This document shows positions 2,564 to 7,233 of a stretch of 7,233 nt of DNA, one piece after another. Every line of letters begins with the position of its first letter. The first letter of the stretch is position 1. The translations under genes were made by a program, and so were the position numbers. This DNA is from a bacterium. Lineage in GTDB: Bacteria > AUK180. Below the pieces are notes generated by a model. That model had not been told where the DNA came from. It saw nothing but the letters and a program-made list of their open reading frames with translations, and searched no databases. The DNA lies in NCBI GenBank assembly GCA_030622125.1, contig JAUXGM010000107.1:1-7233 (forward strand), read 5' to 3'.

Positions 2564-2668
2564 TTATCTCTCAAACTCCTCATAAGAAATAGATTTTTTA
2601 TTTTCCAATTTTCTTAATATATTCTCTATTTTTTTAATCTTTTTTTGTATTACATCGTTAGTAACCAT
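2564..2668 (-). pseudogene. hepT: HepT-like (DUF86/HEPN) toxin, N-terminal stub of 34 codons
   Basis: Too short for ordinary ORF cut-offs. It reads M-V-T-N-D-V-I then a long basic/hydrophobic helix (residues 8-24) and ISYEEFER, then TAA. It starts 11 bases inside the end of the MntA-type gene, behind a strong AGGAGGG site 5 bases from the ATG. That is where the HEPN toxin HepT normally sits in MntA/HepT modules, and the residues match the first helix and turn of HepT (DUF86). The remaining roughly 100 residues, including the RX4-6H RNase motif, are missing. The next gene, cdd, starts two codons after the stop in the same frame, so a deletion has probably joined the stub to cdd. It may still be translated, acting as a leader for cdd, or be a mini-protein in its own right. 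The assignment rests on position and a short helix, so it is moderate. Confidence 0.6.
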
Positions 2669-3110
2669 ATTTACCCTCCTCAATTCTTTTCCTTAAATTC
2701 TTATATGATATTGTTCTTAAAGGCTCCGTATCAAAATAAAGCATTTGAGATTTTGATTCAAACTTGATTCTTATGTGCTCATCTTTTGAAAAAAGTATCA
2801 TCTTGGTTTTTAAAACTTGATGGATTAAAGTAAGAGGTGCTTCATTTAGTATAACTAAATCTATTTCATCTGTCTTCAAAGTTGTTGTAATTATATCAAT
2901 TAATTCTAATTTTCGTTCGAATATATCTTTTTTTATCTTTTTTTCATTAATGTAAATTGCAATATCTATATCAGAAAGTGGTGTTACTTTACCCTTTCCA
3001 TAAGAACCAAATATATATCCGAACAAAATATCCTCTTCTTTTTGTAAATTTGATTTAAGCAAAGGCAGTAAAGGCTCTAATTTATGTCGAATTTTCTTTA
3101 ATCTTATCAC
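2658..3110 (-). CDS. mntA: MntA-type minimal nucleotidyltransferase antitoxin
   Basis: A 150-residue protein of the minimal nucleotidyltransferase (MNT) family. The active-site motif is GSYGKGKVTPLSDIDI: G35, S36 and the metal-binding D48 and D50, with a third acidic residue at D84 in EIDLVILN. In characterised MntA/HepT pairs, MntA silences the HEPN RNase HepT by transferring AMP groups to a tyrosine near its active site. Here only a stub of hepT follows, overlapping by 11 bases, so this looks like an orphan antitoxin with all its catalytic residues. The C-terminal segment (HIRIKFESKSQMLYFDTEPL) is typical of the family. The start is GTG; there is no upstream ATG in frame and no Shine-Dalgarno site. 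A consensus promoter places the message start on that GTG, implying leaderless translation. Confidence 0.85.
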   Translation of the reverse strand: MIRLKKIRHKLEPLLPLLKSNLQKEEDILFGYIFGSYGKGKVTPLSDIDIAIYINEKKIKKDIFERKLELIDIITTTLKTDEIDLVILNEAPLTLIHQVLKTKMILFSKDEHIRIKFESKSQMLYFDTEPLRTISYKNLRKRIEEGKYGY

Positions 3111-3115
3111 TTTTA

Positions 3116-3144
3116 ATTATATCAAATATTTTCCAAAATGTCAA
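3116..3144 (-). promoter_or_regulatory. Consensus sigma70-type promoter of mntA, apparently leaderless
   Basis: Reading the - strand, TTGACA (3144-3139) and TATAAT (3121-3116) are both perfect, with a 17-base spacer. Only five bases (TAAAA) separate the -10 box from the GTG at 3110, so the expected transcription start is the first or second base of the start codon. The -35 box overlaps the TGA stop of the upstream gene. It probably drives mntA, the hepT stub, cdd and hemW. Confidence 0.8.
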
Positions 3145-4148
3145 TTTGAGGGCAGTAGTGAATGGCTAATCTTTCCTGTTTCGGGATCATATATCCATTT
3201 ACCATCAAGTGCATCCGGTATCTTCTTCTCATGGAAATATCCTTTTTGGGCAAGTGTATCAAGGCTCTCAGGGAACTTACAATACTCTGCATAGTACATT
3301 TGAATGGCAACCCTTATATTTCTCATCTTAGCAAGGAGTGTATTTTTTTTTGCCATATCAAGAACAGGTTGAAGATTGGGATAGATAACATAGGGCTTAA
3401 TATTAGGATAGGCACTGTTATAAATGGTTCCTTTTTTATTGTCATATATCCAGCGTCCTTTTACGGGTTCAGGAATCTCATATAGAAATTCAGGAACAAG
3501 ATCTTTAAGTTTTTTAGGAAAGATCACATTGAATCCTTTTCTGTGCTTAGCAGAATAGTAGTGAATAGCAACATAGAGGGCATCAAGGTTATTTTGTATC
3601 TTCTTTCGCACCTTTCCCGGTATCTTTTCATCGGCAAGGCTGCCATAAAAATCACTCTGTTTTATCTCAACAATTTCACCGCATATAATTGTAGATTTCT
3701 CGACATCAATAACACGAACGGTAATATCAAAGAATTCCCCAACCTCAGAAACACTACCGCAGATTATGAAATTAGCTGCAAGTATCTTTCCGATCTTATT
3801 TGCGGAATGGACATCAATGATCCCCGTCTTTGCCAGGTTTAATTCTTTCATGACCTCATCGATCCTTGTCCTTTCAACAATGGTAAAGGTTCTCAGTTGA
3901 ACAAAATTTGTTATGAGTAGATCGGATACTATCCTTCCGAGATCCTCCTTTTTTACAAGTTCCGAGAGATTTTCAAGCTCAAAAATAGCGATATTTATCT
4001 TTTTATTATCGGGAAGTTCTTTTGTAATGGAGTTACTCAATTTGGCAGTGAGTTTTTCAACCTCTTCATTGAGAGCACTCCTCTTCTGGGCATACGGAAG
4101 AGGGATTAGGAAAATAAACATAAGAAAAATAAAAATACTCTTTTTCAT
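3141..4148 (-). CDS. Exported CsgG/FlgO-like protein with two pseudopilin-head-like modules
   Basis: A 335-residue predicted secreted protein. Residues 1-20 form a signal peptide (hydrophobic core, PYA before QKR). Residues 50-165 resemble the CsgG/FlgO fold of outer-membrane-associated proteins, with INIAIFELEN, FTIVERTRIDEVMKEL, TGIIDVHSANKIGKIL and FIICGSVSEVG. Two related modules follow, at about 179-248 and 271-333. Each has a helix rich in A-I-x-Y-Y, a P-x-x-L-x-x-L turn and a G-(R/K)-W-I-Y-D strand pair followed by T-G/T-I. This resembles the globular head of type II secretion pseudopilins (GspG-like) without the prepilin N-terminal helix. It is related to the next gene upstream (5398-4562) in the first domain only. 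It has its own promoter and no Shine-Dalgarno site. The function is unknown; an envelope role is inferred. Confidence 0.75.
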   Translation of the reverse strand: MKKSIFIFLMFIFLIPLPYAQKRSALNEEVEKLTAKLSNSITKELPDNKKINIAIFELENLSELVKKEDLGRIVSDLLITNFVQLRTFTIVERTRIDEVMKELNLAKTGIIDVHSANKIGKILAANFIICGSVSEVGEFFDITVRVIDVEKSTIICGEIVEIKQSDFYGSLADEKIPGKVRKKIQNNLDALYVAIHYYSAKHRKGFNVIFPKKLKDLVPEFLYEIPEPVKGRWIYDNKKGTIYNSAYPNIKPYVIYPNLQPVLDMAKKNTLLAKMRNIRVAIQMYYAEYCKFPESLDTLAQKGYFHEKKIPDALDGKWIYDPETGKISHSLLPSN

Positions 4149-4199: not shown

Positions 4200-4256
4200 C
4201 GTTATTCTGAGAAATTTATCAGCTGATTATTCAAATTCCGATTTTTCGGGGAGAAT
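4200..4256 (-). repeat. 57-base repeat, inverted copy of 6598-6654
   Basis: The reverse complement matches 6598-6654 at 51 of 57 positions by my alignment, without gaps. All six differences are transitions, with A/T here where the other copy has G/C. They weaken the CCCCGA/TCGGGG stem that is intact in the other copy. Confidence 0.8.
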
Positions 4257-4271
4257 CTATCCTTGAAGTTT

Positions 4272-4289
4272 ACCCCGTTAATATGGGGT
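4272..4289. repeat. Small hairpin ACCCC/GGGGT
   Basis: ACCCC (4272-4276) and GGGGT (4285-4289) form a 5-base-pair stem around an 8-base loop, directly before the next hairpin. Confidence 0.5.
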
Positions 4290-4290
4290 C

Positions 4291-4327
4291 ATTATGAGGA
4301 TTTTGAAAAAATCCGTAATAATCTCAT
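4291..4327. repeat. Hairpin element with CCGTAATAATCTCAT end
   Basis: ATTAT pairs with ATAAT (4318-4322), and inside it GGATTTT pairs with AAAATCC around a 3-base loop. The segment 4302-4327 is matched exactly (26 bases) by the reverse complement of 7208-7233. The ending CCGTAATAATCTCAT recurs at 5626-5640 in the same orientation. Confidence 0.75.
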
Positions 4328-4348
4328 TTTTTAATTGTCAATTATCCC

Positions 4349-4369
4349 TGTCTGCGTGCAACGCACAGG
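4349..4369 (+). repeat. 21-base element, exact inverted copy at 5565-5585
   Basis: The segment starting TGTCTGCGTGCAACG is the exact reverse complement of 5565-5585. The pair brackets the gene at 4562-5398. The element is itself partly self-complementary (CCTG...CAGG when extended to 4348-4374). Confidence 0.8.
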
Positions 4370-4409
4370 CAGGCATTATCAATTGTCCATTATATTCAAC
4401 TGTTATAAA

Positions 4410-4520
4410 GTCATCCCCCGCCCCCATTTATAGCAGTTGCCTGTCATTCCTGCGAAAGCAGGAATCCATAAAATTGTCATACTATCATCCCCCGACCCCA
4501 TTTTCGACCCCATTTTTTTA
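4410..4520. repeat. CCCCCG / GACCCCATTTT strings
   Basis: GTCATCCCCCGCCCCCATTT (4410-4429) and a doubled form (4484-4520) with two GACCCCATTTT units. The reverse complement of the doubled form resembles 6212-6244, which has AAAATGGGGTCTGG then AAATGGGGTTGGGGG. A single CCCCCGACC string also ends the hemW gene (1088-1103). Confidence 0.65.
4446..4465. repeat. Perfect hairpin ATTCCTGC-GAAA-GCAGGAAT
   Basis: An 8-base-pair perfect stem closes a GAAA tetraloop, preceded by GTC and followed by CC. This resembles GTCATTCC...GGAATCC hairpins that I recall from intergenic DNA of many bacteria. No T-run follows on either strand, so a terminator role is unlikely. Confidence 0.75.
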
Positions 4521-4561
4521 TAAACTGTCAAACTATCAACCTGGCACTATTTTCTCTGAAA

Positions 4562-5398
4562 CTATTTTTTACGCAGATTCACTTTCATCATTTCTGCAAT
4601 TTTATCTTCCCCCTTTTTAATTATACATTCAGATGATTCATCTCCCGTAACTTCTTTCACCTTTAAAAGTCCAACTTTTTTTTCTATCACAATAAGTTTC
4701 TTTGTTTTGGGATGTATTTTTTCTGTCTCTTTAATCACATCAAATAGCATCTTTTTCTTTACACCTGCTTGCTTTCCAATATCGATCGTCACTATATTTC
4801 CTTCAATACTCAGTATATATCCTGACATTGGAAATGCATTCGTCATATCTTTTGCTACTTTCTTATATACTCTCTTTACCGTCTTTGCTAAAGTAGTCTC
4901 CGGATCAGCGGATGTATCAAGTGACAAGATTGATCCAAGCAGACCTCCGCCCGGCTTGGCATTGTACGTTTTAGAAAATAAGACTCCCGCTGTTTTTATA
5001 TCAATTACTCTAATTTGAATGACTACCAATGCGTCTACAGACAAATAAGGTTCACCTTTATCATCAACTTTCTGCACTGCCCTATAATTTACATTCGGTA
5101 CAGAACCTATAACTGCATATCTAACTCCACTAATCTTTCCTATTTTTACTGCATCTGAAACATCAATCAATCCGGTTAAACTTAATTGTTGCTCCTTCAC
5201 AATTTTATCCAACTGACTACGTTCTATCACATCAAATATTCCCTGATTGACCAATAGGGAAATCATCTGATTCTCCGCTGTGAGAGTCATGTTGTAATCA
5301 TTTCTAACACCGTTAAAAGGAAACACTGCAATCTTTTGTTTTTCTGAATACAAAACAGACAGAATCATTAACAAGCAAAAAAAGAAAACTTTCTTCAT
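4562..5398 (-). CDS. Exported CsgG-like protein with FlgT-C-like C-terminal domain
   Basis: A 278-residue predicted periplasmic or outer-membrane-associated protein. Residues 1-18 are a signal peptide with a hydrophobic core and no lipobox. Residues 22-145 form a CsgG/FlgO-like domain: KIAVFPFNG, FDVIERSQLDKIVKEQQL, TGLIDVSDAVKIGKI and YAVIGSV, then a beta-rich part ending RVIDIKTAGVLFSKTY. Residues 192-265 (GYILSIEGNIVTIDIG, GVKKKMLFDVI, VGLLKVKEV) resemble the C-terminal beta-barrel domain of FlgT. The FlgO/FlgT likeness is structural; no flagellar gene is near. It shares its first domain with the next gene downstream, so the two are tandem paralogues with different tails. The ATG has a strong AGGAGG 5 bases upstream, unlike its neighbours, and a stem-loop lies in its leader. 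Confidence 0.78.
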   Translation of the reverse strand: MKKVFFFCLLMILSVLYSEKQKIAVFPFNGVRNDYNMTLTAENQMISLLVNQGIFDVIERSQLDKIVKEQQLSLTGLIDVSDAVKIGKISGVRYAVIGSVPNVNYRAVQKVDDKGEPYLSVDALVVIQIRVIDIKTAGVLFSKTYNAKPGGGLLGSILSLDTSADPETTLAKTVKRVYKKVAKDMTNAFPMSGYILSIEGNIVTIDIGKQAGVKKKMLFDVIKETEKIHPKTKKLIVIEKKVGLLKVKEVTGDESSECIIKKGEDKIAEMMKVNLRKK

Positions 5399-5409
5399 AA
5401 GAACCTCCT
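5399..5409 (-). promoter_or_regulatory. Strong Shine-Dalgarno site
   Basis: On the - strand AGGAGG is followed by five bases and the ATG at 5398. This fixes the start of the FlgT-C-like gene and contrasts with the apparently leaderless starts at 3110 and 4148. Confidence 0.85.
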
Positions 5410-5413
5410 ATAA

Positions 5414-5439
5414 GAAAACAGATTAACAAATCTGTTCTC
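5414..5439 (-). promoter_or_regulatory. 11-base-pair stem-loop at the 5' end of the message
   Basis: On the - strand AACAGATT-TGTT-AATCTGTT is a perfect inverted repeat, extended to 11 pairs with one G-U pair by flanking GAG/TTC. It lies between a TATAAT box (5449-5444) and the Shine-Dalgarno site of the gene at 5398. The predicted start (about 5437-5438) is inside the first arm, so the message would begin almost at the stem. It could stabilise the RNA or, as DNA, be an operator. Confidence 0.6.
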
Positions 5440-5443
5440 TATG

Positions 5444-5449
5444 ATTATA
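5444..5449 (-). promoter_or_regulatory. Likely -10 box for the FlgT-C-like gene
   Basis: A perfect TATAAT on the - strand, followed by CATAGAG into the stem-loop. No good -35 box lies at 17 bases; TTCACC lies 19 bases away and is weak, so the promoter may need an activator or may be a chance match. Confidence 0.45.
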
Positions 5450-5521
5450 TTTTTTAATATTATGTATTGGTGAAAACGGGAACAATGATTTACTATCTTA
5501 ACTAATAAATGAGATTGTCTT

Positions 5522-5548
5522 GGGACACCACTCTGCAAGGAATGTCCC
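5522..5548. repeat. GGGACA...TGTCCC hairpin element, related copy near 6806
   Basis: GGGACA (5522-5527) pairs with TGTCCC (5543-5548). The surrounding GTCTTGGGACAC ... TGCAAG ... TGTCCCGC is repeated in the same orientation at 6801-6838, with small differences in the loop. Confidence 0.65.
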
Positions 5549-5564
5549 GCTGCTTTTTCGCCTA

Positions 5565-5585
5565 CCTGTGCGTTGCACGCAGACA
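5565..5585 (-). repeat. 21-base element, exact inverted copy of 4349-4369
   Basis: CCTGTGCGTTGCACGCAGACA on the + strand is the exact reverse complement of 4349-4369, on the other side of the FlgT-C-like gene. Confidence 0.8.
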
Positions 5586-5608
5586 AGCAATGACTCTTTC
5601 CTTCCGTC

Positions 5609-5640
5609 ATTATGAGGGGTTTACTCCGTAATAATCTCAT
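5609..5640. repeat. Second copy of the CCGTAATAATCTCAT hairpin, different loop
   Basis: ATTAT (5609-5613) pairs with ATAAT (5631-5635), and GGGG with CTCC around TTTA, with one G-U pair. The outer parts match 4291-4327 but the inner stem and loop differ while pairing is kept. Confidence 0.65.
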
Positions 5641-5649
5641 TTGGGATTC

Positions 5650-5769
5650 CTACGCCCCGCACCAATAATGGTGCCGTGGTTTATCCAGCACTTTGAAATG
5701 GTGCTGGGCTCTGAATGACAGTAAGGAAATGAGATTCCTACGCAAACTTTGTTTGCTCTGAATGACAGA
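5650..5769. repeat. Two adjacent GATTCCTACGC...CTCTGAATGACAG units
   Basis: Both units open with GATTCCTACGC and close with CTCTGAATGACAG. The first (about 5645-5721) contains GCACCA-ATAA-TGGTGC and CCAGCAC/GTGCTGG hairpins. The second (about 5733-5768) contains GCAAAC-TTT-GTTTGC. The ends are shared and the cores differ. Confidence 0.65.
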
Positions 5770-5856
5770 AAATAAGTGAATAGTAAATAGTCAATGGTTA
5801 ATAGTAAAGGATTTAGAGAACTGGTGACTTGGTGACTGGTGCTCTGGTAACCCTTC

Positions 5857-5898
5857 CATTGAGATTGCCACAGTCGCTTCACTCCTTCGCAATGACAG
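5857..5898. repeat. CATTGAGATTGC...GCAATGACAG repeat, copy 1
   Basis: ATTGC and GCAAT bracket a core CACAGTCGCTTCACTCCTTC. It resembles the GTCATTGCGAGGAGCGAAGC type of intergenic repeat that I recall from many uncultured-bacterium contigs. Related units are at 6356-6397 and 6541-6586. Confidence 0.7.
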
Positions 5899-5959
5899 AG
5901 GTAAATTAATTTTGTTGCAAAATTATTGTAATCTGTGTTTCTACCGAATATAACGAGAT

Positions 5960-6040
5960 TTATATCGGGGGGGGGGCAGAAATAGACTTAATTTCTAAAG
6001 AACCATTATCATTAAGTTTACCCATTTTATTAAATTCCAT
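5960..6040 (-). pseudogene. 26-codon frame behind a perfect promoter, ending just after a C10 tract (possibly broken or switchable gene)
   Basis: The ATG at 6040 is preceded by AAGG 6 bases upstream and by a perfect promoter at 6056-6084. The peptide begins MEFNKMGKLNDNGSLEIKSI, followed by S-A-P-P-P-I and a TAA at 5962-5960. I do not recognise it. The three prolines come from a run of ten C (5976-5967 on this strand). One more C would skip the stop and keep the frame open to 5637, through DINLVIFGRNTDYNN and then repeat-derived sequence. One fewer C would give a third ending. So this may be a homopolymer sequencing error, a phase-variable start, or a gene whose 3' part was replaced by repeats. 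The good start signals make the beginning real; the end is uncertain. Confidence 0.45.
5967..5976. repeat. Ten-base G homopolymer
   Basis: A run of ten G on the + strand, unusual in such AT-rich DNA. It lies inside the frame starting at 6040, and its length decides where that frame ends. Confidence 0.9.
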
Positions 6041-6055
6041 ATCTAACCTTGTTTT

Positions 6056-6084
6056 ATTATATTACTTTTTTTCTTCAATGTCAA
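6056..6084 (-). promoter_or_regulatory. Perfect sigma70-type promoter
   Basis: On the - strand TTGACA (6084-6079) and TATAAT (6061-6056) are both exact, with a 17-base spacer. The predicted start is near 6049, leaving about 9 bases of leader containing AAGG before the ATG at 6040. It is one of three well-formed - strand promoters here with 17-base spacers. Confidence 0.75.
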
Positions 6085-6163
6085 GTTTTTTTTATTTTTT
6101 TTGAAAATCTATTGAAAAGTAGAATTTTATCATTTAACTATATTGTATCATTCTCATCCATAT

Positions 6164-6189
6164 CACGATTTCTCAATTGAGAAATCGTG
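6164..6189. repeat. Perfect 26-base palindrome (CAATTG centre)
   Basis: CACGATTTCTCAA (6164-6176) is followed directly by its exact reverse complement. With no spacer it suits binding of a dimeric regulator or a DNA cruciform better than an RNA hairpin. It lies about 80 bases upstream of the -35 box of the promoter at 6056-6084. Confidence 0.75.
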
Positions 6190-6211
6190 CTTTATATTAA
6201 ATAAACCTGAG

Positions 6212-6244
6212 AAAATGGGGTCTGGAAATGGGGTTGGGGGTTGA
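6212..6244. repeat. AATGGGGT/GGGGGTTGAC string
   Basis: AAAATGGGGTCTGG followed by AAATGGGGTTGGGGG and TTGAC. This is the inverted counterpart of 4484-4520, and its end resembles the final codons of hemW (GGGGGTTGAC). Confidence 0.65.
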
Positions 6245-6317
6245 CTTTATGACATTTTTGAGGCAAATACCTTATTCTTTGTACCCTTTCATTTCTTTTT
6301 ATTTTGTATGTTATTTG

Positions 6318-6343
6318 CGTATTTGCGTAATTACGCAAATACG
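6318..6343. repeat. Perfect 26-base palindrome (TAATTA centre)
   Basis: CGTATTTGCGTAA (6318-6330) is followed directly by its exact reverse complement. ATTTGCGT is also tandemly repeated just before the centre (6313-6328). It has the same length and spacerless form as 6164-6189 but a different sequence. Confidence 0.75.
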
Positions 6344-6355
6344 ACATTACCATTT

Positions 6356-6397
6356 CATTGAGATTGCGACGGTCATTTTATTCCCTCGCAATGACGG
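6356..6397. repeat. CATTGAGATTGC...GCAATGACGG repeat, copy 2
   Basis: It has the same ends as 5857-5898, with a different core (GACGGTCATTTTATTCCCTC). Confidence 0.7.
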
Positions 6398-6404
6398 TAA
6401 GTGA

Positions 6405-6435
6405 GGGCACGGCATGCCGTGCCCCTACGGTTTTT
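6405..6435. repeat. GC-rich palindrome with terminator-like tail, copy 1
   Basis: GGGCACGGCA and its reverse complement form a perfect 20-base palindrome (6405-6424). Overlapping it, CCGT (6417-6420) and ACGG (6427-6430) form a short stem followed by five T, which could act as a weak + strand terminator. It is repeated at 6675-6705 with one mismatch. Confidence 0.75.
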
Positions 6436-6506
6436 ACCATTTACTATTCACTGGTTTTGTATTTTCTTTTTAATTGTCAAAATTGGTTCTTCTCCATTTT
6501 AAATGG

Positions 6507-6529
6507 ATTATCGGGTCAAGCCCGATAAT
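6507..6529. repeat. Hairpin ATTATCGGG/CCCGATAAT
   Basis: A 9-base-pair perfect stem around TCAAG. It is followed by GACG, so it ends in AATGACG like the other units of this region. Confidence 0.75.
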
Positions 6530-6540
6530 GACGATGAAGT

Positions 6541-6586
6541 GAATGAGATTGCCACACCCCGAAAGCATTTGGAGTTCGCAATGACA
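6541..6586. repeat. GAATGAGATTGC...GCAATGAC repeat, copy 3
   Basis: It has the same ends as copies 1 and 2, with an unrelated core (CACACCCCGAAAGCATTTGG). Confidence 0.65.
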
Positions 6587-6597
6587 AAAAAAGATAA

Positions 6598-6654
6598 ATT
6601 CTCCCCGAAAAATCGGGGTTTGAATAATCGGCTGATAAATCCCTCAGAATGACG
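6598..6654 (+). repeat. 57-base repeat, inverted copy of 4200-4256
   Basis: It contains CCCCGA-AAAA-TCGGGG, a perfect hairpin, and ends CAGAATGACG. This appears to be the less decayed copy, since its internal stem is complete. Confidence 0.8.
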
Positions 6655-6674
6655 GTTGCTTTGGTATTCTAAAT

Positions 6675-6706
6675 GGGCACGGCATGCCGTTCCCCTACGG
6701 TTTTTT
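6675..6706 (+). terminator. GC-rich palindrome copy 2 with CCGT/ACGG stem and T6
   Basis: This is a direct copy of 6405-6435 with one change that breaks the outer palindrome (T at 6691). CCGT (6687-6690) and ACGG (6697-6700) followed by six T resemble a short Rho-independent terminator on the + strand. No + strand gene precedes it, so the role is doubtful; it is primarily a repeat. Confidence 0.35.
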
Positions 6707-6719
6707 CTTTACTTATCAA

Positions 6720-6800
6720 CTTATTGCCTTATTGTCTTATTCCCTTGTCTATACTGTTCTTGGGAGGTTTATCGTTATCTAAGGAAGAATCCGGGACACA
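6720..6800 (+). repeat. Composite repeat unit 1: three CTTATTNN octamers plus 60-base block
   Basis: CTTATTGC, CTTATTGT and CTTATTCC (6720-6743) run into a block (6741-6800) that begins TCCCTTGTCTATACTG and ends CCGGGACACA. The block recurs at 7013-7072 with a single mismatch (T6761 against C7033). Confidence 0.85.
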
Positions 6801-6983
6801 GTCTTGGGACACACGATGCAAGCAACGTATGTCCCGCCTGTTTTCTGAGTTTAATATTGTTTTTCACTAACCTCCAGCCTTTCACCCCGCACCAGTTTCA
6901 CGGTGCTGGGCATGCCTCTAACCTCTTGTTGTTGAGGTAATGTCCCTCTTTTTATGGGGTAATGGAGATTAATATTGTTTTTA

Positions 6984-7072
6984 CTTATTCCCTTATTTCC
7001 TTATTTTCTTCTTCCCTTGTCTATACTGTTCTCGGGAGGTTTATCGTTATCTAAGGAAGAATCCGGGACACA
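6984..7072 (+). repeat. Composite repeat unit 2: four octamers plus 60-base block
   Basis: CTTATTCC, CTTATTTC, CTTATTTT and CTTCTTCC (6984-7015) precede the second copy of the 60-base block (7013-7072), 272 bases after the first. Both units are preceded by an AATATTGTTTTT segment (6852-6864, 6971-6982). Confidence 0.85.
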
Positions 7073-7110
7073 TCTCAACAAAAAAAAATCAGTTTGATGA
7101 GGTATGTCCC
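7065..7110. repeat. GGGACA...TGTCCC hairpin with A-rich loop
   Basis: GGGACA (7065-7070) and TGTCCC (7105-7110) can pair, with CTCA/TGAG pairing further in. It takes the same place after the 60-base block as the different GGGACA/TGTCCC segment at 6793-6835. Confidence 0.55.
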
Positions 7111-7154
7111 TCTTTTTATGGCTTTTCGGAGTTTAATATTATTTTTCGTATTTC

Positions 7155-7186
7155 CTTATTGTCTTATTTCCTTATTGCCTTATTTA
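7155..7186 (+). repeat. Third CTTATTNN octamer array (four units)
   Basis: CTTATTGT, CTTATTTC, CTTATTGC and CTTATTTA in tandem, then CTTCTTCTTG. It again follows a GAGTTTAATATT segment, but no 60-base block follows before the window ends. Confidence 0.8.
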
Positions 7187-7207
7187 CTTCTTCTTGACCT
7201 GTGAAAT

Positions 7208-7233
7208 ATGAGATTATTACGGATTTTTTCAAA
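7208..7233 (-). repeat. Hairpin element, partial at window edge
   Basis: The reverse complement of these 26 bases is identical to 4302-4327. The rest of the element lies outside the window. Confidence 0.8.

Follow-up and report, generated by a model that had tools for sequence, protein, structure and literature searches.

An LpoB/CsgG-type domain joined to two GspG-type heads without a prepilin helix in a putative periplasmic protein

The heads of GspG pseudopilins form the outer face of secretion pseudopili, and LpoB, TolB-N, FlgT and PelC are all envelope-assembly domains, with an LpoB-like fold that is common to TolB, FlgT and PelC. In CsgG, the curli export channel, an internal insert is the segment that holds the membrane hairpins. 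Here we describe a protein of 335 residues from a bacterial genome (G000) in which an N-terminal domain of the LpoB/CsgG type is followed by two GspG-type heads. The gene lies on the reverse strand (3141..4148 including the stop codon, ATG start) of the window, i.e. the whole stretch of 7,233 nucleotides that was analysed. The parts are known, and the combination is new as far as the literature was searched. We propose, tentatively and with slightly less than even confidence, that the protein is a soluble, Sec-exported and non-lipidated periplasmic adaptor, in which the LpoB-type domain would serve for docking and the paired, helix-less GspG heads as binding surface.

All features of the gene are given on the reverse strand. 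Residues 1-20 (4089..4148) are a probable Sec (type I) signal peptide, as judged from sequence and hydropathy: the approximately 20 N-terminal residues are hydrophobic and compatible with a type I signal, there is no lipobox cysteine, the first cysteine being residue 130, and no further strongly hydrophobic stretch follows. A poorly conserved extension that is predicted to be helical (residues 21-48, 4005..4088; 14% identity to the homologue described below, helix 19-42 in the AF2 model) precedes the LpoB/FlgO/CsgG-clan, TolB-N-like domain (residues 49-166, 3651..4004). The C-terminal half is made up of module 1 (residues 179-254, 3387..3614) and module 2 (residues 255-335, 3144..3386), and by sequence and hydropathy neither a prepilin motif nor a hydrophobic helix is found upstream of their starts at residues 179 and 255. 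Comparison with a full-length homologue of 48% identity shows the reading frame to be real: the modules (55% and 53%) are conserved like the N-terminal domain (52%), whereas the linkers retain 14% and 25%.

The N-terminal domain matches Pfam CsgG over cut-off (3.7e-11; protein residues 48-134 against profile positions 7-99 of 210), and FlgO (PF17680) at 5.9e-6, with 26.6 bits against a cut-off of 22.6 and near-full coverage (2-120 of 130), so that the CsgG/FlgO assignment of the preliminary description stands for FlgO over almost the entire profile and for CsgG in part. The LpoB profile is matched at 6.4e-4 by the protein and at 4.7e-5 by its homologue, and the LpoB equivalog cut-off (TIGR02722) is failed by far, at 18.4 against 110.55 bits. 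When structures were realigned to the model of residues 23-172, the C-terminal domain of LpoB was best (Z 16.0, 134 residues, 2.6 Å), followed by GNA1162 (11.4), TolB-N (about 9 to 11), FlgT (9.2), PelC (9.0) and CsgG (at most 8.1), the last with 101 residues aligned over chain range 32-209 while skipping the internal CsgG insert. The earlier label of a secretion-channel-type domain is hence not retained, as only the first half of CsgG is matched and the structure is closest to the soluble LpoB/TolB-N/FlgT domains. The CsgG-clan domain is used freely in this genome, where other clan proteins also carry swapped modules: on contig C119 (L008:1381-2661, reverse strand) it is joined to an FGE-sulfatase domain (5e-54), and on contig C68 it stands behind a region predicted by inspection to be beta-rich.

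The two modules, of approximately 75 residues each, are homologous to one another by sequence, the repeat in the C-terminal half exceeding chance. BLASTP aligns them with 37% identity over 60 columns (E 7e-9 as a single comparison), and hhalign, using profiles of two rows each (this genome and its homologue), gives 97.6% and a score of 62, against a shuffle maximum of 22.7 and with 0 of 200 column shuffles reaching the score. Together with the Pfam matches, this confirms the earlier reading of an open reading frame with a signal peptide, a CsgG/FlgO-clan domain and two similar modules. The motifs that had been described are all present, as VAIHYY (193-198), PKKLKDL (211-217) and GRWIYD (231-236) in module 1 and as VAIQMYY (280-286), PESLDTL (293-299) and GKWIYD (316-321) in module 2; the spacing A-I-x-Y-Y is exact in module 1 only, module 2 having A-I-x-x-Y-Y (A-I-Q-M-Y-Y).

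No pilin family was detected when the C-terminal half was scanned against Pfam and NCBIfam; T2SSG and TIGR01710 gave no match for the protein and none over cut-off anywhere in the phylum. Searches of PDB sequences returned chance matches only with the protein and weak unrelated matches only with a two-row tandem profile, and PHROGs gave nothing informative. The link to pilin families came via standalone lipoproteins in which the C-terminal module also occurs and which score Pfam T2SSG at 9.7e-4 to 0.018, below cut-off. Searched against 386 genomes, the tandem region matches both proteins without the helix and true prepilins, the latter having GFTxxEL-type leaders. In hhalign comparisons with seven prepilin heads, module 2 reaches 98.5% with no shuffle near, while module 1 is weak at 17.9%, yet above all 200 shuffles, and aligns at 96.0% to the helix-less set. 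A profile built from helix-less modules only, with module 1 of both homologues left out, detects module 1 at 2.4e-7, and the first eight matches of this same profile in the PDB are all GspG chains (E 5e-6 to 2.8e-4; next 0.28). Both modules thus belong, by homology of their sequences, to the GspG-type head superfamily.

AF2 with a two-sequence alignment gave a usable N-terminal domain and unreliable modules (pLDDT under 50). With an alignment of 11 rows of tandem modules from different genomes, pLDDT rises to 86 and each module is predicted to consist of a long and a short helix and a hairpin of two strands, at residues 178-201, 214-217 and 233-244 in module 1 (pLDDT about 82-93) and at 259-289, 296-301 and 318-329 in module 2 (about 91-98 over the core); with a pTM of 0.51, the relative placement of the two modules is not trustworthy. 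Plain Foldseek with the tandem model returned nothing significant. On realignment of the best 25 Foldseek chains, the V. cholerae pseudopilin EpsG (4lw9) matches module 1 with Z 7.1 (2.2 Å, 70 residues; next 2.6), and module 2 has no separate structural match in this tandem-model search. A Z score of about 7 is modest alone and counts here because it agrees with the independent sequence profile. The notion of two GspG-like heads without the prepilin helix is accordingly upheld by the alignment of module 2 to prepilin heads, the PDB profile search and, for module 1, EpsG, and the modules resemble both each other and a pilin head in the hhalign comparisons, the shuffles, the AF2 model and the EpsG alignment.

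Heads of this kind are reused widely. At E 1e-7 or better, the head profile has matches in 88 of the 386 genomes, a count that includes true prepilins. Among the distinct open reading frames inspected, 14 carry a prepilin motif, and a long N-terminal region or a lipobox is seen in most of the remainder; these numbers are biased by the choice of loci and by crude motif rules. Most helix-less heads belong to lipoproteins or TPR proteins; in the loci read, the TPR genes adjoin those of ABC-2 transporters. The module occurs singly or in tandem in three N-terminal contexts, i.e. behind a lipobox, behind ABC-2-linked TPR regions and behind the LpoB-like domain. The head hence appears to be a reusable envelope module that is exported without the pilus-forming part. 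No description of helix-less GspG heads was found in the open-access literature, which is weak evidence of absence. The protein had earlier been called an unusual mix, which holds for the fusion to an LpoB/CsgG-type domain, the rare part, and not for the detached heads themselves, which are widespread.

A recurrent trio was observed in unrelated genomes, consisting of an ABC-2 ATPase, an ABC-2 permease and a TPR-like protein that is anchored in the membrane and has one or two GspG-type heads at its C-terminus (L171:2247-5235, L172:363-2556, where the stretch read contained the permease and TPR genes only, L173:3239-5794, L174:4594-7307 and L164:1-2918); we know of no description of it. A single-head lipoprotein (L175:7481-7900; L136; L222-L224) is present in five of the eight genomes of the G083 phylum, and the next gene in G083 and G225 encodes a long protein resembling a nucleotide cyclase (L175:5387-7477). 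Lipoproteins with two tandem GspG-type heads and a lipobox-like motif occur at L159:988-1890 and L170:1642-2574, the latter locus having two adjacent head lipoproteins (1642-2574 and 2300-2653) with lipobox-like motifs, and in L086 and L095 the heads are C-terminal in other long proteins (436 and 604 residues). One head lipoprotein has a weak BamK profile match, the literature on which gave nothing about pilin-like proteins.

For the fusion protein we infer a periplasmic location, an adaptor role and the identity of possible partners, along the following lines. Exported via Sec, the protein would be left soluble and unlipidated in the periplasm, where its LpoB/FlgO/TolB-N-type domain would dock on an envelope partner. 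The two compact C-terminal GspG heads, in which the prepilin leader and the polymerising helix would have been lost or never present, may then serve in pair as a protein-binding surface, such that the adaptor would expose one LpoB-type and two GspG-type surfaces. As leader and helix are absent, the protein cannot be a substrate of prepilin peptidase, and the normal route into a pilus is closed to it. The recurrence of the same module behind three N-terminal contexts makes a binding module the most economical reading, and this fits with the finding that no catalytic domain is common to any of the module classes. Against the adaptor reading stand the lack of a known partner and of a conserved operon, the number of full-architecture sequences, only two, and the dispensability of the gene at least in the sister genome G001.

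Alternatively, the protein may be an accessory of the cell's own type IV pilus or T2SS, acting as a cap, plug or chaperone on the periplasmic side: the heads would bind the growing pseudopilus or the machine, and the LpoB-like domain would hold the protein at the outer membrane or cell wall. The genome indeed encodes such a machine, with pilM-N-O-P-Q, a secretin and pilC/gspF on contig C117 (gene names by inspection) and at least five prepilins, and the modules are genuinely related to GspG heads. However, no pilus or T2SS gene adjoins the gene in either of the two genomes that carry it, no GspG exceeds the Pfam cut-off in any genome of the phylum, whose pilin heads look different, and the same modules also belong to ABC-2/TPR clusters, beside which the stretches read show no pilus genes. 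A pilus partner is possible but unsupported, and we regard the accessory role as unlikely. The role in envelope assembly or sensing suggested in the preliminary description is hypothetical.

An LpoB-like role, in which the protein would regulate peptidoglycan synthesis or cell-wall coupling while its heads attach to the wall or to a second partner, would agree with the best structural match of the N-terminal domain (Z 16) and with the LpoB profile matches of the protein and its homologue. It is nevertheless quite unlikely, as the protein is unlipidated and falls far under the equivalog cut-off, and the LpoB-like fold is also that of TolB, FlgT and PelC; the lack of a match to the UB2H docking domain in this draft genome, with none over cut-off across the phylum, may weaken the reading further. 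A bolder extension, which we consider improbable, is that the helix-less heads of a soluble factor docked to the wall or outer membrane would imitate the tip or lattice of the pseudopilus and, from the periplasm, cap, plug or template the assembly of pilus or pseudopilus; such a factor would belong to a broader, as yet undescribed class of detached-head proteins.

The full architecture was found in two genomes, this one and G004 (JAGLGN01), a related MAG, at the 48% identity given above. Among 119 module-bearing and 38 clan-domain open reading frames from fetched loci, both features are combined only in copies of these two genes. Searches of genome contigs gave no matches with the single protein and, with the two-row alignment, the known homologue, one CsgG-only match and nothing else. 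G001, which belongs to the genus of G004, has the corresponding site intact but without the gene, 1,906 bp of G004 (L042 9175-11080) being replaced by 39 bp; the gene is dispensable at least in this sister genome. This empty site and the very patchy presence would suit a chance or decaying fusion in which the heads have no selected role, but the frame is intact in two genera and the modules are 53-55% identical against 14-25% for the linkers, which leaves that explanation very improbable. A secretion channel of the CsgG type in the outer membrane, to which periplasmic domains have been added, we reject as extremely unlikely, since, despite the Pfam CsgG match over cut-off, the match is limited to half of the profile, the fold is LpoB-like, the structural alignment jumps the insert that holds the hairpins, there is no lipid anchor and the full CsgG profile (8-207 of 210, 3.9e-43) sits in a different gene of the genome on contig C26, which, spanning the whole profile, is its real CsgG-like candidate.

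No operon is conserved around the gene, the neighbours differing between the two homologues: a second CsgG-clan gene, a nucleotidyltransferase, a cytidine deaminase and a HemW-like gene in the window, and DUF3795-like and radical-SAM-like genes (by inspection) in G004. Flagellar or Pel genes are not found within the 7,233-nt window. The second clan protein (4562-5398, reverse strand; 278 residues) has an FlgT_C-like C-terminus (2.1e-4, below cut-off), and the two clan genes are consecutive on one strand with 413 bp between them. An MNT-type nucleotidyltransferase is followed by a 34-codon open reading frame (MVTNDVIQKKIKKIENILRKLENKKSISYEEFER) resembling the start of a truncated HEPN partner (together 2569-3110, reverse strand), possibly a decayed toxin-antitoxin pair. 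A perfect sigma-70 consensus with extended -10 (TTGACA-17-TATAAT; 3116-3144, reverse strand), at the end of the gene under study and before the nucleotidyltransferase, suggests that the two are not co-transcribed. Positions 4200-4560 and 5400-7233 are repeat-rich non-coding DNA with inverted copies (e.g. 4200-4264 and 6590-6654, 88% complementary), and in G004 the homologue is preceded by a repeat of approximately 220 bp that occurs dozens of times in the genome.

In conclusion, the wide reuse of helix-less GspG heads is of more interest than the rare fusion itself: if the heads bind partners, they would offer a soluble tool for learning what is recognised by pseudopilin heads, and the analysis corrects automatic annotation, which would label such proteins as CsgG family channels. 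Compared to known systems, CsgG (PDB 6l7a, 4uv3) shares the core fold of the N-terminal domain (Z at most 8.1) and has in addition a membrane-hairpin half and a lipobox, both absent here. Residues 23-172 fold like LpoB, TolB-N, FlgO, whose profile is covered over 2-120 of 130, the middle domain of FlgT and PelC; unlike the LpoB group, the protein is non-lipidated, under the LpoB equivalog cut-off and different at its C-terminus. The major pseudopilin heads of GspG, PulG and EpsG (Pfam T2SSG, TIGR01710; PDB 4lw9, 3fu1, 3g20, 1t92) share with the modules the long helix, the short helix segment with PxxLxxL, the GYxxxIPxxPxG turn and the hairpin, whereas the modules have no prepilin leader or N-terminal transmembrane helix, are present as two tandem copies embedded at a C-terminus and are modelled with a shorter sheet of two strands each. 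The ABC-2-linked TPR proteins (e.g. L140, L164, L171, L173, L174) carry one or two helix-less heads at the C-terminus in an alignable tandem layout, with a membrane-anchored TPR domain and an ABC-2 operon context in place of the LpoB-like domain. Finally, the head lipoproteins (L038/L175, L136, L143, L156, L159, L170), which unlike the fusion protein have a lipobox anchor and no LpoB-like domain, contain the same module, single or in tandem, likewise exported without the prepilin helix.
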